NCBI RefSeq assembly: GCF_900659865.1
Contig: NZ_LR213809.1
Location: forward strand, 1-35,257
Length of the DNA: 35,257 bases
Direction: 5' to 3'
DNA from: Hyella patelloides LEGE 07179
Lineage (GTDB): Bacteria; Cyanobacteriota; Cyanobacteriia; Cyanobacteriales; Xenococcaceae
Shown piece by piece: positions 113-22,201 of the stretch (position 1 is the stretch's first letter; every line of letters starts with the position of its first letter). Made by a program: the position numbers and the translations under genes. Below the pieces are notes generated by a model. The model searched no databases. It saw nothing but the letters and a program-made list of their open reading frames with translations, and was not told where the DNA came from.

Positions 113-982
113 CCACGTATTGCTATACATACCTTGAAATCATATCAAGGGTCACTCCCTGGATTTGACTTTCTGGGTTTTAACATTAGGCAGTATCCAG
201 TAGGGAAATATCATTCTCGACGGGGTTACAAAACCCTTATTAAGCCCAGTAAAGATAGTCAAAAAGTACACTATCAAAGGCTACGACAGATTATTGATAA
301 ACGTAAAGCAGTATCTCAAGACGATTTGATTGCTGCTTTGAACCCGATTATCAAAGGATGGTCAAACTACTTTTCATCAGTCTGTAGTCAGAAAATCTTT
401 AACAGATTAGATGAACTTGTGTACCACAAACTCTGTCGATGGGCGAAACGTCGTCATCACAATAAATCGTGGCAATGGATATCCCGTAAATACTGGAAAA
501 CCATTGGTAACAATCACTGGTGTTTTGCTAGTAATGATTTCGATAAAAAGTACAAACTCTTTAACCATGCTGAGACAAAAATCATCAGACATACTAAGGT
601 TAAAGGCGTTGCTTCTCCTATGGATGGGAACTTGATTTACTGGAGTTCCAGATTGGGAAAAAATCCTCAAATGCCTCGAAGTAAGGCTTTTCTTCTTCGT
701 AAGCAGAAAGGGAAATGTAATAAGTGTGGATTGTATTTTCTCCAAGGAGACAGATTAGAACTCGACCATATTCTGCCCAAATCTAATGGGGGAACAAATC
801 GAAGGGATAATCTTCAACTTCTACATAAACACTGTCACCACTCAAAAACCAGAAAGGATATTCAAAATCTGGTTATCAATACAGGTACTCATGACAAGGG
901 CTGTACTACCGAGGAGCGGAGTGAAGGGAAACTTTCATGCTCCGTTTTGCAGACGAGTCGGAGAGGTGACTCTTCGGCTTAG
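113..982 (+). pseudogene. Group II intron maturase, 5'-truncated (RT tail, maturase domain, HNH)
   Basis: This is the C-terminal part of a group II intron-encoded reverse transcriptase/maturase. The frame is open from just after a stop at 110-112. Its only initiator is a TTG at 134, and the residues before it (HTL) still match the usual context upstream of the PGFDFLGFNIRQ block, so the gene was cut rather than started here. The remainder shows that block, a maturase X/GIIM region (about residues 65-121 counted from the TTG) and a C-terminal HNH endonuclease with CNKCG (C195, C198), LDH (D211, H212) and CHH near residue 234. The RT palm with its YADD catalytic motif is absent, so reverse transcription and mobility in cis should be lost. 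The stop codon lies inside intron domain VI. The junction of the truncation is near 110-130; the sequence before it does not encode RT. Confidence 0.85.
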
Positions 983-990
983 TTCAACCT
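914..990 (+). mobile_element. 3' end of a group II intron (domains V and VI)
   Basis: Bases 914-949 fold as a domain V-like hairpin: it begins GAGCGGAG with the AGC triad near 915, has a GGAAA loop, and returns through GCTCCG. Domain VI follows: 956-965 pair with 970-979 (ten pairs, two of them G-T) across a GTGA tetraloop, and an unpaired A near 981 is the likely branch point. The intron should end within about 988-992. The 3' exon junction lies only about 20 bases from the convergent stop codon of the flavodiiron gene. The RNA 3' end looks intact although the 5' part of the element is gone. Confidence 0.75.
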
Positions 991-13086: not shown

Positions 13087-13626
13087 TTACCAAGTAGATT
13101 GATAATCATCTGCTGTTAGCCGCCATTGTTTGCCATATACATGAATTTGTTTTGTCTCACCAGAACTATTGACTAATTCTCCATCAATATGACTCCAAGC
13201 TAAGAGACTACCTTCAAGATTAAAAATACTTAAACCTTGTTTCAACAGCTTTTGGGCATATTTACCGCTACGATAACCAATAGTACAATAAGCAACAATT
13301 GGATAATTTTTATAACGGTCAATATTTTGCTCAAATTCAGCTTGGGAGATGGCACCTGGAATAATTGACACTACTCGTTCTTCGGGCGAACGAACATCGA
13401 CAATAATTGTTTTATTTTGCTGTTTTAGCTGTCTAAATTCCTCCACTGTTATCCCTGTAACTTCAGGAAAATTATTGACGTACTCATCATACATAGAGGT
13501 AATTTTTTGCTGTTTCCATGCTTCAGATCGAGTAGTAGTTTGTTGAGAGCAAGAAACTGTTAGCAAAAATAAGCCAGTAAAAATTGTTAACCAATAATTT
13601 CGCTTTAAAAACAAAAATGATATCAT
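13087..13626 (-). CDS. Rhodanese-domain lipoprotein
   Basis: A 179-residue lipoprotein with a positively charged N-terminus, a hydrophobic stretch (11-22) and a lipobox LTVSC ending at C26, so it should be anchored facing the periplasm or lumen. The rhodanese domain spans about 55-150, with IIVDVRSPEE and the active-site loop CTIGYRSG (catalytic C114). Rhodaneses transfer sulfane sulfur or act as thiol/persulfide handlers. The C-terminal tail (HVYGKQWRLTADDY) resembles tails of other cyanobacterial lipid-anchored rhodaneses. Substrate and partners are unknown. Confidence 0.85.
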   Translation of the reverse strand: MISFLFLKRNYWLTIFTGLFLLTVSCSQQTTTRSEAWKQQKITSMYDEYVNNFPEVTGITVEEFRQLKQQNKTIIVDVRSPEERVVSIIPGAISQAEFEQNIDRYKNYPIVAYCTIGYRSGKYAQKLLKQGLSIFNLEGSLLAWSHIDGELVNSSGETKQIHVYGKQWRLTADDYQSTW

Positions 13627-13753: not shown

Positions 13754-15100
13754 TTAACGACCTACAAAATCTAATTGATTGGATAAATCTGCTACAAATT
13801 TTTCTTTATTAAATTTATAGCCCTTTCCTAAAAAACCAATCAAGCTTTCTGTATCATCTTGAGCATTTTGTAAGCAAGTTGAAGCCCCAGGAGAGGGTGT
13901 AATATTAAATAGGATATTATCTCCTAAAATTTTGGCTTCTCCTAATTCTAAACTACGAGTATTGAGATTAACTATTTGAGGGCGAACACCACCATAACCT
14001 CGAGCAAACTTTAAATCTTTTAAGGTAATTGAGGGTATAATTTTTCTGACTTGTTTAATAAATAGTCTTTTGCCAATAACAGGTAGATCGTAGATTAAAT
14101 TTAGGATAATGTATCTCAAAACTGTAAAATCAGAAAGTATTTTGAGAAAACTTGCGATCGCTTTTACCCTCAATCCTGCGGTTTGAAAATATTCTAAAAC
14201 AGTAGCGTAATTGCGTCTTTCTAACATTGGTAATACTTTTGCGGTAGGGCCAAAACGAGTAAGATCGGGATTGTCTACTTCTGGATCGCCGTGAATAGCT
14301 GCAAAGGGTAATTTTTTCAATTGTACTGTATAAACTTTTCCTTTGAGCATTTTGGGGGCAAAATAAAAACTTCCCGCAACACTTAATAAAGCATAATCGC
14401 GACCATATCCTAAAGATTTAGCTAGTAATAAACTGTGCGCTCCTGCTTCTACGGCTATAGCTTTAGCTCTAATAGTTTTTTCTGGAGTTTTAATTACATA
14501 AATATCATCTTGCTTAGTAATTTTAGTAACTTGATGGTCAAAGAAAATATCAATATTTTTTGAGATTTTATTAATAGCATGACCGAGAAATAACTGAGAC
14601 AAATTCTGAAAATTAATAGTATAGCCTTCCTCTGTAAAGAGTGCTAAAATGTCTTCTGTTGTTTCTCTTTCCTCTAAAATTTTTGGTTCTAATTCGGCAA
14701 TTTTTTCTTTGTCAATTAACTTTAAAGTAGGAAATAATTGCTTAAATTCTTCATATCTATTTTTTAACTTTGCCACTTGTTCTTCGCCAACAGCCAATAC
14801 CATTTTGTGATATTTAGTATAAGCTTGCTGTTGAGAATCGTTGTTTAATAAATAATTTTTTACTAGAGTTGCTGCACGATTAACTTTACGTGCTTTTTCT
14901 AGGGTATAGTTGGTTTCAATATCCCCAAAATGAAGCGTCTGACTATTATTGCTTTTACAAGAATTAACTAAAGCAACGGCGGAATTCTTTTCAATTAAAG
15001 CAATGCGATCGACATTAGTATAATTGCTTAAAGTGTAGAGTAATGCCGTACCGCAAACTCCACCACCAATAATGGCTATTTCGTAGGTATTTTGACTCAT
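13754..15100 (-). CDS. FAD-dependent oxidoreductase, malate:quinone oxidoreductase-like
   Basis: A flavoprotein of 448 residues. The Rossmann dinucleotide motif GGGVCGTALLYTL lies near residue 12 and ends in an acidic residue (ALIEK). The NNSQTLHFGDIETNYTLEKA segment corresponds to the NNAGTGHA...NYTP block of malate:quinone oxidoreductase, and the C-terminal region contains a GGVRPQIVNL motif and SPGASTCLQNA. It therefore belongs near Mqo and the DAO superfamily. The sequence is divergent at the substrate block, so malate is not assured; another 2-hydroxyacid is possible. If it acts like Mqo it would be a membrane-peripheral enzyme feeding electrons to quinone. It stands alone. Confidence 0.7.
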   Translation of the reverse strand: MSQNTYEIAIIGGGVCGTALLYTLSNYTNVDRIALIEKNSAVALVNSCKSNNSQTLHFGDIETNYTLEKARKVNRAATLVKNYLLNNDSQQQAYTKYHKMVLAVGEEQVAKLKNRYEEFKQLFPTLKLIDKEKIAELEPKILEERETTEDILALFTEEGYTINFQNLSQLFLGHAINKISKNIDIFFDHQVTKITKQDDIYVIKTPEKTIRAKAIAVEAGAHSLLLAKSLGYGRDYALLSVAGSFYFAPKMLKGKVYTVQLKKLPFAAIHGDPEVDNPDLTRFGPTAKVLPMLERRNYATVLEYFQTAGLRVKAIASFLKILSDFTVLRYIILNLIYDLPVIGKRLFIKQVRKIIPSITLKDLKFARGYGGVRPQIVNLNTRSLELGEAKILGDNILFNITPSPGASTCLQNAQDDTESLIGFLGKGYKFNKEKFVADLSNQLDFVGR

Positions 15101-15842: not shown

Positions 15843-17558
15843 TTATTTTTCAGTTGTTGCTAATTCTGGCTCTTTGGTAATGGTTAACTCTTCTTGAGGT
15901 GCAGATTTAAACCAACCTTTGTATTTGGCTGCTGCGACTAACACAAATAACAAATCTAAACCAACAAACGCAGCTACAGTAAGAATGGAATCACCTGTAC
16001 CAAAACCGTAACTGTGTAAACCAGTACCTAGCACGAAGTTAACTCCATACCAAGCCATTAGTACTGCATTGAAAGAAACTACGCTAGTAACAGCCATCCC
16101 AAAGTTAGCGAGCCAACCTACTAAACGCCCATGAAGGGGTACAACGTAACACATTAAAGCAATTAAAGCCCAGGTTTCTTTAGTATCCCAACCCCAAAAA
16201 CGCCCCCAAGCAAAGTGCGCCCAAATTCCACCAAGGATAATACCTGTGGCGAGCAGCAAAACTCCTACTTGAACAACGCCGTAATTCCATTTAGAAAGGC
16301 TACGAATTCTCGCTGTTGCTTGGGGTGCAAATAAGTAATGTCCTAAAATTATGTGACCTAACCCTAAAGCTAGGGCAAAGCTAGCATAACTCAGGGTAAT
16401 GGTGGGAACGTGAATACTCAACCAGAAATTGTCTCGTAATACGGGTACTAAGGGTTTAATAGTAGGATCGAGTACCGCAGGTAAGCTATCGGCAAGAATT
16501 AAACAGACTATAGATAAAGGTGCAGCAGCTAGTAAATAGTATTTGGCGCGATAAATTCCTTCAAAGAGTAAAGCGATCGCCGAAATACCAAAACCGACCC
16601 AAATTACTGACTCATACATATTAGTCACTGGAGGTCTACCCGCAATCTGCATTCTTTCTAAGAAGCCGTAACCGTGAATGGCTAAACCTGTACCAAAAAT
16701 GGCGATCGCAGTTTCGTAGAAATTAAAGGAGCTAAATAATAGTACTCCCAACATGACCACAAAACCCAAACCATAAAGTATCCAAGCTTTAGCAAAGGGA
16801 TGCAAGTTGTAAAAACGGACTTCTCTAGCTAGAGTAGCTTGTTCGGGATATATATCAGGACTTAAGGCTTCTAGTTGAGTATGTAAGTCATTTGCGATCG
16901 CCCCTAAACTAGCCAGATATTCAGGGTGATTTTTGTAGCTTTGTCTGAGGCGATCGTAACTACTAGCAATGGGAAGTAAAGCATCGCGATCGTAATACTG
17001 ATTAGCTTCTGTAATTCCTACCCAAGCACCTTTAATATCTGTAGGATGGGGTACTAAAGGCAAGCGATCGTTACCTACTGTTTCTACCGTTAAAGCTAGA
17101 CGATCTTCGATGGTTAAAGCTTCTCTTTCATCACGATTTAAATCTATCCCTGCTACTTGTTTTTGCTGGATATTTTTGATAAATTCACCCAAATCGGAGC
17201 GAATTAACTCAGAAAAGCTAAAATACTTGCTTTCAGGATCGAGTCCTACTTTTTCTTTTAAAGGACGATAACTCAAGAGAATGAAAGGTTCTTCATTCCA
17301 ATTGCGGTTATTTAACCACATAGAAAGATAAGTGTTTAAATAATCCAAATTTTCGCCGTTATCTGCTTGATAGCTAGTTCTACCATGAATTTGCGCTACA
17401 GTTTCTCTAGCAACAGTATCTAAAGGTTTTTTTCTTCCTTCTAGCTGTACAGCTAAATCTTGCAAAGGTGCAACGGGTGATGTTTGAAACTGGCTCAAGG
17501 GAATTATCAAAATTGCGATTCCCAGTACCAGACCGATAATAAATTTAGCTATTTTCAT
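15843..17558 (-). CDS. CcsA-type cytochrome c assembly protein with long N-terminal domain
   Basis: System II cytochrome c assembly component (CcsA/Ycf5 family; databases often write CcsB) that moves and holds heme for attachment to CXXCH motifs outside the cytoplasm. The WWD heme-handling segment is present (WAHFAWGRFWGWDTKETWAL, residues 446-465), with candidate heme-ligand histidines H383 (SIHVPTITLSY) and H515 (GLHSYGFG). About eight membrane helices follow residue 255. Ordinary cyanobacterial CcsA is roughly 320-350 residues; this protein has 571, with an N-terminal signal-like helix (7-24) and a soluble region (about 25-250) beginning LEGRKKPLDTVARETV, a block I associate with extended CcsA forms of other phyla. 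It is divergent from the globin/multiheme cytochrome genes, so a dedicated maturation role for those cytochromes is a reasonable inference. The ResB/Ccs1 partner is not here. Confidence 0.85.
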   Translation of the reverse strand: MKIAKFIIGLVLGIAILIIPLSQFQTSPVAPLQDLAVQLEGRKKPLDTVARETVAQIHGRTSYQADNGENLDYLNTYLSMWLNNRNWNEEPFILLSYRPLKEKVGLDPESKYFSFSELIRSDLGEFIKNIQQKQVAGIDLNRDEREALTIEDRLALTVETVGNDRLPLVPHPTDIKGAWVGITEANQYYDRDALLPIASSYDRLRQSYKNHPEYLASLGAIANDLHTQLEALSPDIYPEQATLAREVRFYNLHPFAKAWILYGLGFVVMLGVLLFSSFNFYETAIAIFGTGLAIHGYGFLERMQIAGRPPVTNMYESVIWVGFGISAIALLFEGIYRAKYYLLAAAPLSIVCLILADSLPAVLDPTIKPLVPVLRDNFWLSIHVPTITLSYASFALALGLGHIILGHYLFAPQATARIRSLSKWNYGVVQVGVLLLATGIILGGIWAHFAWGRFWGWDTKETWALIALMCYVVPLHGRLVGWLANFGMAVTSVVSFNAVLMAWYGVNFVLGTGLHSYGFGTGDSILTVAAFVGLDLLFVLVAAAKYKGWFKSAPQEELTITKEPELATTEK

Positions 17559-18072
17559 GATTTATAAGGGTTTGTTCTTAGATTAGTTTATACCAATCGA
17601 AGGAGTCACCGAGTCAACTAAGGAGTGAGGAAGAAGGACTTGCACCTTTAATATATGGAGCAGATGGATATCCGAATCGCGATCGCCCACCAAGAGATTC
17701 AAAAATCAGAAGGGATGAAGAATTATTAGTAAATAGTAATTATCCACCACCAACTAACAAAACTAAAATGTCACAATATCAAAACATTTTTTTAGTAAGA
17801 AGTACAGACTTTTGAATCAATTTAACTGTTTAAGAGAATCTTTTTTCGTAAAAACTTGCAAATAAGTTATACATAACTACTATTGTTTCAGGATTTATAA
17901 CTATTGATAGTTGCTGTTTTGATTTTTCTGCATTGTTTCGATGCAAAAAAAGGATTTAAAAGCCATAAATCAAGATACCAAAACATTTTTAGTAACAAAA
18001 GATACGGTTCAACCATAGTAATAGACCTATAAGGTATATAGTCTGTTGGTGGAATAAAGATTCCTATCTAAA
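17559..18072. other. Divergent control region of the heme-protein cluster
   Basis: This 514-base spacer lies between the divergently read CcsA-type and globin genes. It contains an NtcA-type promoter near its right end and an imperfect direct repeat: 17780-17806 and 17979-18005 share CAAAACATTTTT followed by AGTAA and TAC. Between them, TGCAT...ATGCA near 17929-17945 can form a short hairpin. No ORF or RNA gene was seen. Confidence 0.5.
17992..18035 (+). promoter_or_regulatory. NtcA-activated type promoter upstream of the globin gene
   Basis: GTAACAAAAGATAC at 17992-18005 is an exact GTA-N8-TAC palindrome, the consensus for the nitrogen regulator NtcA. A TAAGGT box (TAN3T form) begins at 18030, exactly 24 bases after the TAC, within the usual 20-24 base spacing of NtcA class II promoters. 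The predicted start of transcription would be about 25-30 bases before the globin ATG. A site and a spaced -10 box together are much less likely by chance than the 6 fixed bases alone, but binding is unproven. Confidence 0.55.
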
Positions 18073-19134
18073 ATGTCTTTACAAGTAGAGTTACTAGAAG
18101 AAAGTTTTGAGGCTGTTAAACCTCAAGCGGATGAATTTGTAAATAGTTTTTATAATAATTTATTTACAACTTATCCAGAAGCACAGCCACTATTTGCCCA
18201 TTCTAATATGGCAGAACAGAAAAAAAAGCTTTTAGCTTCTTTGGTTTTAGTGGTTGAAAATTTAAAACAACCTGATATTTTAAGCGACACTTTAAAAGGA
18301 TTAGGTGCAAGACACGTTAAGTATGGCGCGTTACCAGAACACTATCCTTTAGTGGGTAATTCTCTTTTAACTACTTTTGAACAATATTTAAAAGAAGATT
18401 GGACACCACAAGTTAAACAGGCTTGGGTAGATGCTTATGGCGCAATCACAGAATTAATGCTTGATGGGGCTGATTATTCCTCATCAGAAATTGCCTTAAA
18501 AACTCCTGCTGCTACTGAACCAGAGCCAGAAAAATCTGGTTTACAAGCAGGGCTATTAGAGTCGAGTTTTGAAGCAGTAAAGCCTCAAGTAGATGAATTT
18601 GTAAATAGTTTTTACAACAATCTATTTACTATGTATCCAGAAGCCAAGCCTTTGTTTGAGCATTTAGATATGGCAAAACAAAAGAAAATGCTGCTTAATT
18701 CTTTGGTTTTAGTAGTAAACAATCTGAGAAAGCCTGATGTTCTAAGCGACACTTTAAGAGGGTTAGGCGCAAGACACGTAAAATATGGTGCGCTACCAGA
18801 ACACTATCCTTTAGTCGGTAGTTCTCTGTTGACTACTTTTGAACAGTATTTAAAAGAAGATTGGACACCACAAGTTAAACAAGCTTGGGTAGATGCTTAT
18901 GGTGCAATCACAGAGCTAATGCTTGATGGGGCTGATTATTCCTCATCAGAAGTTGCGCTACAATCTGATGTTTCTTTAAACGAGCCAGAAATCGCCAAGT
19001 CAAATTCTGGTTCTAGTCTCGGAACTGATGGTAGTGCAACTCTTAACAATGAAAGTAACTCCCAAGCAGGCTTGCTAGCTCTCGTCGGCGGTGGGGCTAT
19101 AGGGATTATCGCCCTACTACTGCTTTTTCTGTAG
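18073..19134 (+). CDS. Tandem globin with C-terminal membrane anchor
   Basis: Two bacterial-hemoglobin-like globin domains (about 1-138 and 157-294) in one chain, then a Ser/Asn/Glu-rich linker and a C-terminal hydrophobic helix (LLALVGGGAIGIIALLLLFL, ending at residue 353). Each domain aligns with Vitreoscilla-type and flavohemoglobin globin domains: proximal His in RHVKYG (H81, H235), Tyr at the B10 position (Y27, Y181) and Gln at E7 (Q49, Q203), a distal pocket suited to tight oxygen binding and NO dioxygenation. There is no FAD/NAD reductase domain. With no signal peptide and a C-terminal anchor, both globins should face the cytoplasm. Reducing power would have to come from elsewhere, perhaps the membrane cytochromes encoded downstream. 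An NtcA-type promoter precedes the gene, and the next gene begins 33 bases after the stop. Confidence 0.85.
   Translation: MSLQVELLEESFEAVKPQADEFVNSFYNNLFTTYPEAQPLFAHSNMAEQKKKLLASLVLVVENLKQPDILSDTLKGLGARHVKYGALPEHYPLVGNSLLTTFEQYLKEDWTPQVKQAWVDAYGAITELMLDGADYSSSEIALKTPAATEPEPEKSGLQAGLLESSFEAVKPQVDEFVNSFYNNLFTMYPEAKPLFEHLDMAKQKKMLLNSLVLVVNNLRKPDVLSDTLRGLGARHVKYGALPEHYPLVGSSLLTTFEQYLKEDWTPQVKQAWVDAYGAITELMLDGADYSSSEVALQSDVSLNEPEIAKSNSGSSLGTDGSATLNNESNSQAGLLALVGGGAIGIIALLLLFL
18091..18955 (+). repeat. Internal 462-bp-offset duplication in the globin gene
   Basis: The two globin-coding segments repeat with an offset of 462 bases (154 codons). The 3' halves are nearly identical at nucleotide level (compare 18397-18490 with 18859-18952, including synonymous positions), while the 5' halves differ more. 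This suggests a fairly recent duplication or local gene conversion within the gene. Confidence 0.8.
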
Positions 19135-19167
19135 CCAACAAGATAGTAAGTAAGGCTGGGTAAGATT

Positions 19168-19797
19168 TTGCTTTTACAACTAGGTAAATTATTACAATCT
19201 AAATTCGTCATTATTGGGGCAATGGTGCTGTTACTTACTTGGTTTTCTGCTGCTTTTGCTGTAGATCGGCGTAGTATCTTTCTCCCTGGAGAAACTTCTA
19301 ACGGTCATGTTCTGTTTGAAAACTCTTGTAAATCTTGTCATGAAGGCTTTAAACCAGTAACTAACGAAACGTGCAATCGTTGTCATGAGGCTGAATTGGC
19401 TACTGATTTTCATAGTGAAAAGAAATTTCGCGATCCTCGTTGGGCGGAGTTACGGGAAAATCTTGATGTATTAACTTGTACCGCTTGTCATGAAGAACAC
19501 GTTCATATGTTTGGTAGAGGAGTACATCTCCAGCCAGATTTATGTATGGCTTGTCATCAGGGAGTTATTGAAGGAGAACTAGCCAGCCATAATGACTTTA
19601 CCCCTGACGGTTGTTGGACTGGTGGCTGTCACAATTTCCACGATCATCGCTCGATTTCGACGGGGTTTTTACGGAAAAATCTCGATCGACCTTGGATTTT
19701 ACCCGAACCTGCTCTTCCAGAAAGAACAGTGGAAGTCAAGTTACAAACTCCTCCTGAAGCAGATTTGATTGAAGCATTTCTGAAGGAGGGAAAATAG
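19168..19797 (+). CDS. Pentaheme cytochrome c (c3-like), membrane-anchored or exported
   Basis: A multiheme c-type cytochrome of 209 residues. Residues about 12-31 form a signal/anchor helix ending SAAFAVD, where signal peptidase could cut after AFA. Heme motifs are CKSCH (54), CNRCH (69), CTACH (104), CMACH (126) and an atypical CWTGGCH (149-155, CX4CH), the latter type known from tetraheme cytochrome c3. Extra histidines (H81, H111, H158, H160) could be sixth ligands. The start is a TTG at 19168; the ATG at 19222 would cut into the signal helix. The gene ends one base inside the next start (TAGTG), so the two cytochromes are coupled. The sequence resembles, from memory, periplasmic c3-family proteins of proteobacteria more than known cyanobacterial cytochromes. 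Confidence 0.87.
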   Translation: MLLQLGKLLQSKFVIIGAMVLLLTWFSAAFAVDRRSIFLPGETSNGHVLFENSCKSCHEGFKPVTNETCNRCHEAELATDFHSEKKFRDPRWAELRENLDVLTCTACHEEHVHMFGRGVHLQPDLCMACHQGVIEGELASHNDFTPDGCWTGGCHNFHDHRSISTGFLRKNLDRPWILPEPALPERTVEVKLQTPPEADLIEAFLKEGK

Positions 19798-19799
19798 TG
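19785..19799 (+). promoter_or_regulatory. Strong ribosome binding site and overlapping stop/start
   Basis: GGAGGG at 19785-19790 sits six bases before the GTG at 19797, whose first base is also the last base of the pentaheme stop codon (TAGTG). This fixes the GTG as the start of the hexaheme gene and points to coupled translation. Most other genes in this window lack so clear a site. Confidence 0.75.
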
Positions 19800-20654
19800 A
19801 AGAAACGAGGATTAAGGAGCGAGAAACCAGGAAAAATACCCTTTCTCAAGAAAAGAATCCAAATTAAGGCTCTATTTTCTAGTTTATTTGTAATTGTTCT
19901 TTTAATCGTTATTAACTGCTTTTTTATAGCGGAAGAGGCGAAAGCTGACAAAGTAACTCAGAGCCAGTTAGAAGAGATTGAGCAGCAGTGGCAAAGTAGC
20001 GCGCACGCTTTAGCCGAGGTTAACTGTTCTAGCTGTCACCAAGACGAAGCTACCAAACAATTAGTAGCCAAGCCCACAGCAGAAAGTTGTCGTAGCTGTC
20101 ATGAAAACTCTGTAGAAACTTTTCTACTAGGAAAGCATGGTATTCGTACTTTAGAATCTTTATCGCCTTTAACTCCAGCGATGGCTCATTTGCCGATGAA
20201 AGACTCAGCTAAAGATTTACAAATGAATTGTAATAGCTGTCATAATGTCCACTCGGTAAATACTGCTGTTGCAGCAACAGATTCTTGTTTGACTTGTCAC
20301 AATGACAATCATTCTCTGAATTATCAAAATTCTCCCCATGGGGGAATAATAAAAAACCTTAGTACTTTACCCCGTCCCAACGAACGAGCTGTTACCTGTG
20401 CTACCTGTCACTTACCCAGAACGATAGTCGGCGAAACAGTTTTAGTCAATCACAATAATACTTACACTTTACTACCACGCGATCGCATGGTCAAAGAAGT
20501 TTGTCTGAATTGTCACGGTGTAGAACACGCCTACAACAGTATCTTCGATGATGAGATAGTCGAAGCTAACTTTGCTCATCCCCCCACTCAAAAGATGCAA
20601 ACCTTTGAACTGGTAAGAGCATTAGAGAAGAAAAGATCGAGCAAAACTGAATGA
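19797..20654 (+). CDS. Hexaheme cytochrome c, membrane-anchored or exported
   Basis: A 285-residue multiheme cytochrome. A basic N-terminus is followed by a hydrophobic helix (about 24-44) and AEEAKAD, either a signal peptide or an uncleaved anchor. Six CXXCH motifs occur at C77, C98, C145, C164, C201 and C236. Histidine-rich segments between them (KHGIR, NVHSVN, NHSLNYQNSPHGG, NHNNTY) probably supply axial ligands. The arrangement is reminiscent of multiheme relays in the hydroxylamine oxidoreductase/NrfA superfamily, but no CXXCK or catalytic Lys motif is present, so it is more likely an electron carrier than a nitrite reductase. It is translationally coupled to the pentaheme cytochrome, and the pair probably works together on the outer face of the membrane. 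Confidence 0.87.
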   Translation: MKKRGLRSEKPGKIPFLKKRIQIKALFSSLFVIVLLIVINCFFIAEEAKADKVTQSQLEEIEQQWQSSAHALAEVNCSSCHQDEATKQLVAKPTAESCRSCHENSVETFLLGKHGIRTLESLSPLTPAMAHLPMKDSAKDLQMNCNSCHNVHSVNTAVAATDSCLTCHNDNHSLNYQNSPHGGIIKNLSTLPRPNERAVTCATCHLPRTIVGETVLVNHNNTYTLLPRDRMVKEVCLNCHGVEHAYNSIFDDEIVEANFAHPPTQKMQTFELVRALEKKRSSKTE

Positions 20655-20657
20655 TCG

Positions 20658-20683
20658 AACCCTAGCTGCAACTAGGTTTTTTG
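20658..20683 (+). terminator. Terminator after the globin-cytochrome operon
   Basis: CCTAG (20661-20665) pairs with CTAGG (20672-20676) and AA/TT flanks extend it, followed at once by TTTTTT. It lies just after the hexaheme stop codon and marks the end of, or a weakening point in, the globin-c5-c6 transcript before the DUF3365 gene. Confidence 0.65.
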
Positions 20684-20729
20684 ATTATTCAACATCACTC
20701 AATCCTTTAAAACTAAGATCATCCTAATA

Positions 20730-21380
20730 ATGAAAAATATCATTCGTACGATAAAAACTCGAACAATTGGCTTAATTGCTGTAGCCGTCACTGTCGCTTT
20801 TACAGCGATCGCTTGTAGTGGTAGTGGCACAACTCAATCTACCACAGAAGTGGGCATTGCGCCTGAAAAAGTAGTAGACTACATCCACACTGTATTACTA
20901 GCAGATCGTACCGCATACACTAAACACGTAGTTAACCGCCTCACCAAATTAGAAGGAAAAGAAAAACCTGAAGGAGTAGTCGATGCAGAAGCTACTGAAG
21001 GTTGGCAAGAAACAGGTGGTGTACCTCTTCCCGCACAAATGTTCCGTTTAGGTTCAGAAGTAGCTTTAGAAAACACTACTGAATTTACTTATGGTCTAAT
21101 TTCCACTTGGAATATTAACGATAGCCACAAGCCTCAAACTGAATTTGAACAAAAGGCAATGGAAGAAGTCAATCAAACTGGTGAACCTTACAAAGACTAT
21201 CAAGAAATCGGTGGGCAAACCTATTATTCTGCTGTTTATCCAGATAAAGCAGTGGCAGAAGCTTGTGTAACTTGTCACAATACTCACCCCGTTCATTTAG
21301 AACGTTATCCCGATAAGAAATTTACAATGGATGATGTTATGGGTGGCATTATTATCAATCTACCTGTAGATCAATCATAG
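20730..21380 (+). CDS. Tll0287-like DUF3365 monoheme c lipoprotein
   Basis: A 216-residue protein with a lipobox (TAIAC, C29), so it should be lipid-anchored outside the cytoplasm. The remainder is a DUF3365 domain, a PAS-like fold known from the cyanobacterial heme protein Tll0287, ending with one c-type heme motif CVTCH (C179, C182, H183) followed by NTHP. In Tll0287 a His/Cys axial pair has been described; here the only Cys outside the heme motif is the lipobox Cys, so the axial ligand must differ or the lipobox is not used. A redox sensor or single-electron carrier role is inferred. It follows the multiheme operon after a terminator, so it may have its own promoter. Confidence 0.82.
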   Translation: MKNIIRTIKTRTIGLIAVAVTVAFTAIACSGSGTTQSTTEVGIAPEKVVDYIHTVLLADRTAYTKHVVNRLTKLEGKEKPEGVVDAEATEGWQETGGVPLPAQMFRLGSEVALENTTEFTYGLISTWNINDSHKPQTEFEQKAMEEVNQTGEPYKDYQEIGGQTYYSAVYPDKAVAEACVTCHNTHPVHLERYPDKKFTMDDVMGGIIINLPVDQS

Positions 21381-21586
21381 TCTATTTATTTCCTTGCTTA
21401 AGGTGAGCAATTTATCAACTATTAGTTTAAGAATTCCCGATCGAAGAAGCAATAAATAGATAAAAAATATAGATAAAAAATATATTGAATATATCTTTTG
21501 TTTCTAGCTTCTAAATTTTATTTAGAAGTAACTGGTAACTAATAACTGACTATTCATGCTCGCCTTTTCTTATTTCAAAGATTGTT

Positions 21587-22201
21587 ATGAAACCTAAATT
21601 TACTACTTTAATAATATTAGTATTTCTTTCCGCAGCAATTCTTGCTCCTTTTGCTGTTAGTCACTTGTACGAACCAATCATTAGGGAACAATCATTTGAT
21701 TTTTTATTATTTATTAAAGGTAATCTTTATAAACAAATTACAGGTTATATTTCTCTAGTTTTTGTAATTTTAGAAATGGTTTTAGTTGCTAGAAAAAGAG
21801 GTAGAGGCTGGATTATAAAAATCAAAATACCTGGTTCAATTAAGTTGTGGCGCAAACTTCATATCTTTTTAGGTGTTGGCTTGTTAGCAATAGTATTAGT
21901 CCATACCATTGGACTTAACGGTTTAAATTTTAATGCTATTTTCTTATCGATATTTTTTGCTGTTAGCCTATCCGCATTAGTAGGAGTGACCGCAGAGACA
22001 GGCGTTGTAGAATCTCCTCAAAGAAGATTTTTTAGCTGGCTACCAAATAAAAATGTTCAAGAAAAAGCTATCCCAGGTATTTCTAAAAGTACCCTAATTC
22101 GTAACTTAAGAAGTTTTTGGTTGGGTACTCACATTATTTTAGTTGCCATGTTTTTTGTAATGCTAGCATTTCATATATTTTTAGCTTATTATTATCAGTA
22201 A
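21587..22201 (+). CDS. Small diheme cytochrome b-like membrane protein
   Basis: A 204-residue membrane protein with about five hydrophobic helices (near 6-26, 49-67, 90-110, 115-135, 179-202). Two helices each carry histidines separated by 13 residues: H92 and H106 (KLHIFLG...LVHTIG) and H182 and H196 (GTHIIL...AFHIFL). HX13H in two neighbouring helices is the arrangement that binds two stacked b hemes in ferric reductase and cytochrome b families. It is too short for NADPH-oxidase flavin domains. Placed after two multiheme cytochromes and a heme lipoprotein, it is a good candidate for the quinol-side membrane entry or exit of electrons. Family assignment beyond this pattern is uncertain. Confidence 0.72.
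   Translation: MKPKFTTLIILVFLSAAILAPFAVSHLYEPIIREQSFDFLLFIKGNLYKQITGYISLVFVILEMVLVARKRGRGWIIKIKIPGSIKLWRKLHIFLGVGLLAIVLVHTIGLNGLNFNAIFLSIFFAVSLSALVGVTAETGVVESPQRRFFSWLPNKNVQEKAIPGISKSTLIRNLRSFWLGTHIILVAMFFVMLAFHIFLAYYYQ

Follow-up and report, generated by a model that had tools for sequence, protein, structure and literature searches.

Which function joins the heme-related genes that lie side by side in the cyanobacterium Hyella patelloides LEGE 07179? The DNA considered here, called the window, is a stretch of 35,257 nucleotides (contig NZ_LR213809.1, positions 1 to 35,257) from an 8.06-Mb cyanobacterial draft genome. The initial annotation read six such genes from it, namely an extended CcsA-type assembly factor, a tandem globin, a pentaheme and a hexaheme c cytochrome, a monoheme lipoprotein and a diheme b-type membrane protein, and all six are confirmed between positions 15843 and 22201 by open reading frames (ORFs), Pfam matches and motifs. 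That inventory overlooked an NtcA-type promoter (17992-18033) and the ResB, thioredoxin and Rieske genes present in relatives. The five genes from globin to b-type protein form one conserved unit. The best mechanism, offered tentatively as possible rather than probable, is a heme relay that would feed electrons to membrane-tethered globins acting as nitric oxide (NO) dioxygenases.

Conservation of the five-gene unit

A four-sequence pentaheme alignment, used for a pattern-based scan of the genome contigs in GTDB r220, gave 56 loci, and all 56 carry cyanobacterial record titles. With the window and genome G170 they make a set of 58 distinct loci. Two duplicates, L012 and L013 (of L021 and L026), are left out of the 58 and are included in the 60 fetched stretches used to count recurring families. 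The order globin, pentaheme, hexaheme, Tll0287-like gene and cytochrome b is complete in 48 of the 58 loci; the ORF caller finds it in 47, and L044 is added since tblastn detects its Tll0287 gene where the caller had chosen an antisense ORF. The remaining 10 loci are interrupted by contig ends. Median intergenic gaps along the five-gene order are 25, -4, 75 and 150 nt. The co-occurrence check proposed in the initial annotation therefore bears out its view of a single cluster, as the homologues in related genomes are linked and not scattered.

The multiheme cytochromes and the monoheme lipoprotein

The pentaheme c cytochrome (19168..19797, + strand) has four CXXCH motifs and one CX4CH by motif count, and its start codon is TTG. 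The five motifs, including both Cys and the His of the fifth, and six other histidines do not vary among the 56 distinct homologues. The structure model is poor (predicted local distance difference test, pLDDT, 51.6). The hexaheme c cytochrome (19797..20654, + strand) begins with a GTG that overlaps the pentaheme stop, contains six CXXCH motifs, and matches PF14537 and PF14522 over their cut-offs. Its six motifs and six other histidines are conserved in 57 homologues, one His at 98%. Of the distinct sequences, 47 of 57 went into alignment A6 and 48 of 56 into A7, with extended, cut or near-identical ones excluded. The conserved histidines outside the motifs are enough for five plus six hemes, so each c heme can be bis-His ligated, and from these counts no vacant catalytic heme is apparent in either cytochrome. 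The best NCBIfam matches of the hexaheme are DmsE- and GSU2203-type decahemes, far under their cut-offs, and parts of it give weak profile matches (E 1e-8 to 3e-3) to hydroxylamine oxidoreductase (HAO)-like chains and to octaheme and pentaheme nitrite reductase chains.

The Tll0287-like monoheme c lipoprotein (20730..21380, + strand) has one CXXCH and matches PF11845 with E 8e-19, at 68.9 bits against a cut-off of 24.1. The lipobox Cys29 and the CXXCH are kept in 56 of 56 homologues, and His53 and His66 are conserved at 98% each; no conserved Cys beyond the lipobox and CXXCH occurs in these 56. A four-sequence profile of the lipoprotein found no real relative in the PDB. Excerpts of the preprint PMC12889525 describe the Tll0287 heme as Cys/His-ligated, and assign redox-related roles to stand-alone members of this type and NO sensing to fused ones. 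The cluster protein is likewise stand-alone and shares PF11845 and the CXXCH. Unlike Tll0287, it is a lipoprotein with conserved His53 and His66 and no extra conserved Cys, and this conservation speaks against axial Cys/His ligation of the Tll0287 type.

The five-helix b-type protein

The last gene of the order (21587..22201, + strand) encodes a five-helix membrane protein of 204 aa, predicted from its invariant histidines and a structure model to be a diheme b cytochrome. The two HX13H pairs, H92/H106 and H182/H196, contain the sole invariant histidines in 53 distinct homologues. The same HX13H spacing is seen in bc-type cytochrome b and in ferric-reductase/NOX proteins. The AlphaFold model has five long helices (pLDDT 79.9). 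Mean Lys plus Arg content is 5.8 in loop 69-88, 6.5 in loop 141-176 and 1.7 in the short N terminus, and 2.1, 0.2 and 0.2 in the other three segments. This positive-inside bias would place the N terminus inside, H92 and H182 near the cytoplasm, and H106 and H196 near the outside, and the protein is predicted to be a two-heme trans-membrane conduit.

Its family matches are weak, to DUF4405 in 41 of 53 homologues (best 7e-6) and to PF01292 in 40 of 53 (best 0.0012). Foldseek gave no match for the fold at E <= 0.001. VIA-align of the model ranks generic helical bundles such as talin (Z 13.1) at the top; superoxide oxidase (10.1), b561 (9.4) and b6f (8.2-8.3) come lower. A PDB sequence search with the cytochrome b alignment returned one implausible match, a designed PPR protein (E 0.0088). 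Membership of the bc type is unsupported by profile, as the 53-row alignment compared with the one petB (cytochrome b6) sequence of this genome gave no similarity. A divergent cytochrome-b6-like protein of 321 aa (PF13631, 64 bits) is encoded elsewhere in the source genome, on contig C17 (L088:645-1941); its gene lies directly behind a PadR-like regulator gene and away from the normal petBD.

The globins

The tandem globin (18073..19134, + strand, 353 aa) matches PF00042 over cut-off in two stretches (E 3e-37). Its domains occupy residues 1-140 and 156-294, the DNA of the two is 84% identical, and a hydrophobic, membrane-type C-terminal segment follows at 334-352. The globin sample comprises 58 distinct proteins, a few of them cut by contig ends, and some of those with a single domain are second globins encoded behind the b gene. 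The number of domains is one in 25 proteins, two in 26, three in 5, four in 1 and five in 1. By a plain hydropathy rule, a hydrophobic C-terminal tail is present in all 33 multidomain globins and in 9 of the 25 single-domain ones.

The pocket is strongly conserved. Among 101 aligned domains, Tyr27 is present in 96, Gln49 in 98, His81 in 100 and Tyr91 in 101, and position 131 is acidic in 82. Positions 27, 49, 81, 91 and 131 are presumably B10, E7, F8, G5 and H23 of flavohaemoglobin. A Tyr/Gln pocket usually leads to tight binding of oxygen (O2). The closest solved chains are the Methylacidiphilum globins 3wfw, 3s1i and 3ubc, followed by Vgb (1vhb), and SyNOS (9q05) matches too. No flavin adenine dinucleotide (FAD)/NAD(P)H reductase domain occurs in the window globin or in the two globins of L014; the rest of the homologues consists of linker and tail. 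Since no evident signal peptide is seen in the window globin, its domains should face the cytoplasm. This predicted topology agrees with the earlier placement of the globins on the inner side and would fit a trans-membrane heme relay with globins inside.

A second, tail-less globin lies behind the b gene at L014:4831-5361, and likewise in L033, L045, L053, L061 and L069. The L014 type has a distinct C-terminal extension with a motif like ELTFYEWLDLYGE.

The upstream region

An NtcA-type site, GTAACAAAAGATAC, matches GTAN8TAC at 17992..18005 (+ strand) ahead of the globin gene, and a -10-like box, TATAAG, follows 22 nt past it at 18028..18033 (+ strand). The strict form TAN3T is found in the window at 24 nt (TAAGGT). 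Excerpts of PMC3898017 describe the canonical NtcA-activated promoter as GTAN8TAC centred about 41.5 nt before the start.

All 64 x 9 spaced trinucleotide palindromes were scanned in the 250 bp upstream of the globin gene at 46 usable loci. GTAN8TAC ranks first, with 19 of 46 against 1.47 +/- 1.12 in 100 dinucleotide shuffles (maximum 5). Two others come next and are likewise enriched there, ATGN9CAT in 13 of 46 loci against 3.1 expected and TGCN7GCA in 10 against 2.0. A wider scan covered 400 bp upstream and 60 bp of the gene, with 227 other genes of the same loci as controls. In it, GTAN8TAC occurs in 30 of 46 cluster upstreams and 25 of 227 controls. The full pattern GTAN8TAC-N20-24-TAN3T is present at 19 of the 46 loci, where 0.24 would be expected (maximum 2 in 200 first-order resamplings), and in 8 of 227 controls. 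The Fisher p values, which ignore kinship among the loci, are 6e-14 for GTAN8TAC and 5e-11 for the full pattern. Grouping of the upstream regions by blastn gave 28 groups, of which 21 contain GTAN8TAC and 15 the full pattern; the pattern is kept across unlike groups, so likeness of the flanks does not explain the enrichment. The spacing between site and box peaks at 22 nt (13 sites). An FNR-like site was seen in 1 of the 46 upstreams only. The sequence pattern of the NtcA regulon is thus present at 17992-18033 of the window and in 19 of 46 loci, and the cluster is probably nitrogen-controlled via NtcA.

Proposed function and its rivals

The observed basis for a mechanism is the gene content, the linkage, the conserved potential heme ligands, the globin pocket residues and the promoter pattern. 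The cluster would encode one heme relay across the membrane, probably switched on by binding of NtcA. Outside the cytoplasm, the two bis-His-capable multiheme c cytochromes and the monoheme lipoprotein, joined in relatives by a Rieske lipoprotein, would serve as a wire. Electrons would cross the membrane through the five-helix b protein, which is predicted to have a heme close to either face. On the cytoplasmic side they would be taken up singly, on contact with the b protein, by flavohaemoglobin-type globin domains, one to five per protein and mostly anchored by their C termini, and the membrane chain would substitute for the flavin reductase domain. The globins would most likely be NO dioxygenases, with nitrate formed from NO and O2. 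For a mat short of nitrogen, the reaction would serve both to clear NO and to regain nitrogen in the form of nitrate. Excerpts of PMC6104048 propose that the SyNOS globin domain makes nitrate from NO as a nitrogen source, and according to excerpts of PMC3820574 a haemoglobin can be reduced by cytochrome b5, with one electron per NO dioxygenation.

Several points weigh against this mechanism. The multiheme wires exceed the needs of a simple globin reductase, the tail is absent from 16 of 25 single-domain globins (including second globins behind the b gene), and the strict promoter pattern is absent from 27 of 46 loci. No quinone or globin docking site was identified. Excerpts of PMC3898017 also report that NtcA binds very many genes, of which a small share serve nitrogen metabolism, so nitrogen control is no proof of a nitrogen substrate.

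Reduction of the globins by the b protein is what separates the globin-feeding relay from a plain electron outlet, which is a doubtful reading and the best surviving of its rivals. Nitrogen starvation would over-reduce the photosynthetic chain, the b protein and Rieske protein would oxidise plastoquinol, the multihemes would hand electrons on to an acceptor that lies beyond the cytoplasm or outside the cell, and the globins would merely buffer or sense O2 or NO. The multiheme wires, the Rieske protein and a b protein with what we take to be the His spacing of quinol-oxidising cytochrome b are in keeping with such an outlet, as is the decaheme likeness of the hexaheme. In contrast, the families that recur in the 60 fetched stretches include neither a porin nor an outer-membrane cytochrome, the globin is kept as tightly as the cytochromes, and the b protein lacks profile similarity to cytochrome b6 of this genome.

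Handling of O2 is an unlikely role. Tethered globins, supplied with electrons by the chain, would bind O2 at the membrane or remove it there, and would shield O2-sensitive metabolism including nitrogenase. The Tyr/Gln pocket, the NtcA-type promoter and the presence of nifH in the genome of the window are consistent with this. However, nifH exceeds its curated cut-off in just 23 of 45 intact-cluster genomes scanned, and Moorena bouillonii PNG has the cluster without nifH over cut-off. The corresponding counts are 24 of 47 for all genomes scanned, 59 of 386 in a sample of the phylum, and 51 of 103 same-order genomes (a hand count). The share of 23 of 45 is close to this same-order background and the cluster is not confined to nifH genomes, which argues against nitrogenase protection as its general role; other roles with O2 remain. 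Functions outside the globin-feeding relay and its three rivals are quite improbable. Least likely of all is the turnover of another small substrate (hydroxylamine, nitrite or sulfur compounds) by the c cytochromes with globins handling a gaseous product, which the weak hexaheme matches to HAO-like and nitrite reductase chains and the many hosts from mats, reefs and benthic settings (from record titles, the habitats partly presumed) would favour, but the conserved His for bis-ligation of every heme leaves no vacant catalytic heme apparent, and no linked dehydrogenase or oxidase gene recurs in the 60 stretches.

Maturation genes and other partners

The extended CcsA-type cytochrome c assembly protein of the window (15843..17558, - strand, 571 aa) is divergent from the globin gene. 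It matches PF01578 at residues 312-510 (E 5e-28) and TIGR03144 under cut-off (E 2.6e-44); nothing in Pfam matches its N-terminal half. No second PF01578 match was found in the source genome, so this CcsA presumably serves ordinary c cytochromes too. The earlier identification as an assembly factor stands, and its role as a simple accessory of the cluster does not, for the same reason. The single ResB match of the genome is of the cluster type and is located on another contig.

A PF01578 scan of 42 cluster genomes (the source genome included, mostly drafts) separates CcsA by frame length into a canonical type of 332-398 aa and an extended type of 565-656 aa. Both types occur in 28 genomes, the extended type only in 9, and the canonical type only in 5. 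CcsA as a dedicated second copy is therefore not a general rule, as it holds in only 28 of the 42. The extended type is alone in 7 of 9 Pleurocapsales cluster genomes, including that of the window and PCC 7305. Together with the single cluster-type ResB, this suggests that the cluster maturation system has replaced the ancestral one here, and such a replacement of cytochrome c maturation appears, in mostly draft assemblies, in part of Pleurocapsales.

Other partners were counted per fetched stretch of the 58, with stretches that end at contig ends included. A pentapeptide-repeat protein gene is present in 38, a cluster-type thioredoxin in 37, ResB in 33, extended CcsA in 31, a Rieske lipoprotein gene in 24 and ChaN in 10. 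Three of 40 distinct thioredoxin-family genes have other motifs, are located apart and were excluded from the cluster type. The Rieske protein of L013 matches PF00355 (E 9e-13). The [2Fe-2S] motif is present in 25 of 25 distinct Rieske proteins, and a twin-arginine leader with a lipobox in 22. Rieske, ResB and thioredoxin genes are not linked in the window, where only CcsA adjoins the unit. In Pleurocapsales cyanobacterium LEGE 10410 (L067:2985-3563), a globin remnant of 48 residues continues in frame into the twin-arginine translocation (TAT) leader of the Rieske gene itself; it is probably the leftover of a second globin.

Distribution, inheritance and loss

Of 386 genomes sampled from the phylum, 6 gave a pentaheme match at E <= 0.001; the match is strong in four (E <= 1.2e-92) and marginal and partial in the other two. 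The cluster is rare, being present in 4 of the 386 and decayed in two more. Its carriers include Xenococcus PCC 7305, Leptolyngbya PCC 7375 and Moorena bouillonii PNG, and by record titles the hosts are mostly seabed or mat-forming cyanobacteria.

A quick tree of 49 loci, built on four concatenated cluster proteins, groups the window with Xenococcus and other Pleurocapsales (SH-aLRT 98-100). Pairwise distances among the four cytochromes correlate with r 0.73-0.83, a pattern expected of genes that are inherited as a unit. The tree groups the orders in part, with 17 label changes against a minimum of 11 and a shuffled mean of 27.7, so the cluster looks old and patchy; it may have been transferred between orders.

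The b protein occurs in 6 of the 386 genomes, namely the four cluster carriers, G054 and G211. The N terminus of the extended CcsA has strong matches (E <= 3.1e-96) in those same six, and the CcsA extension has weak matches of 24-26% identity in four further genomes. In G054 (L089), a transposase gene interrupts the b gene, ccsA contains a stop, and no globin, multiheme or Tll0287 gene was found in the 19-kb stretch. In G211 (L090), a b fragment stands beside an intact ccsA and beside thioredoxin, pentapeptide and ChaN genes, and the cytochromes and globin are gone. Such decay suggests that the cluster is accessory and is lost as a set.

Flanking features

The window flanks contain, by Pfam, a rhodanese lipoprotein (13087-13626, - strand) and an Mqo-like flavoprotein (13754-15100, - strand) beside the CcsA gene, as well as TenA and a BT1-family transporter. 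None of these families is among those recurring around the cluster in the 60 fetched stretches. The edge of the window (134-988, + strand) contains an ORF resembling maturase and HNH sequences and, directly behind this ORF, a group II intron RNA match (RF00029, 912-988, 50.8 bits). No structured RNA reaches the Rfam gathering threshold inside the cluster. A viral or a plasmid origin was rejected, as viral_contigs and the PLSDB plasmids contain no hexaheme relatives, and a defence system was rejected as PADLOC gave no match for five of the proteins.

Relation to known systems

The cluster globins share their family and pocket residues with flavohaemoglobin-type NO dioxygenases (Hmp, Vgb, Hell's Gate globins and the SyNOS globin domain). 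In contrast to flavohaemoglobins, they lack the reductase domain, have one to five tandem domains, are mostly tail-anchored, and are fixed beside multiheme cytochromes. The c3/c7 Pfam domains of the hexaheme and its weak DmsE/GSU2203 likeness recall c3/c7 cytochromes and MtrCAB-type porin-cytochrome conduits. The five plus six hemes differentiate the cluster from MtrCAB kin, and no porin or surface multiheme cytochrome is among the families found in at least 5 of the 60 stretches (unlinked porins were not searched for). As in cytochrome bc/b6f, two HX13H pairs lie on separate helices and a Rieske protein is often linked; unlike there, no cytochrome f/c1 or subunit IV (PEWY) family recurs in the 60 stretches. 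CcsA, ResB and a thioredoxin-like protein of System II (Ccs/Res) maturation are all present in the clusters of relatives. The cluster CcsA departs from the System II norm by its long unmatched N-terminal half and a TIGR03144 score under cut-off, and it is often a second copy in its genome and sometimes the sole one found.

The initial annotation knew of no system of this composition, and none was found among the open-access titles and abstracts listed, a scope outside which most subscription literature lies. The available text of PMC8940962, on multi-heme genes in mats, contains no globin and no such cluster, and that of PMC1457004 does not mention a membrane-tethered cyanobacterial globin. 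The broadest reading is of an undescribed class, in which an NtcA-controlled trans-membrane cytochrome chain would power tail-anchored globin arrays that capture NO as nitrate, or else transfer electrons to NO or O2, with no flavin reductase involved; a second maturation system of its own would have replaced the ancestral one in one lineage. Taken whole, this reading is doubtful.

The cluster may supply a whole globin family with its electron donor chain, and it is probably tied to nitrogen status by a conserved promoter. Its presence in the named strains Xenococcus PCC 7305 and Leptolyngbya PCC 7375 makes direct testing possible. The apparent takeover by extended CcsA and ResB in part of Pleurocapsales is relevant to the question of why two maturation systems persist in some bacteria.

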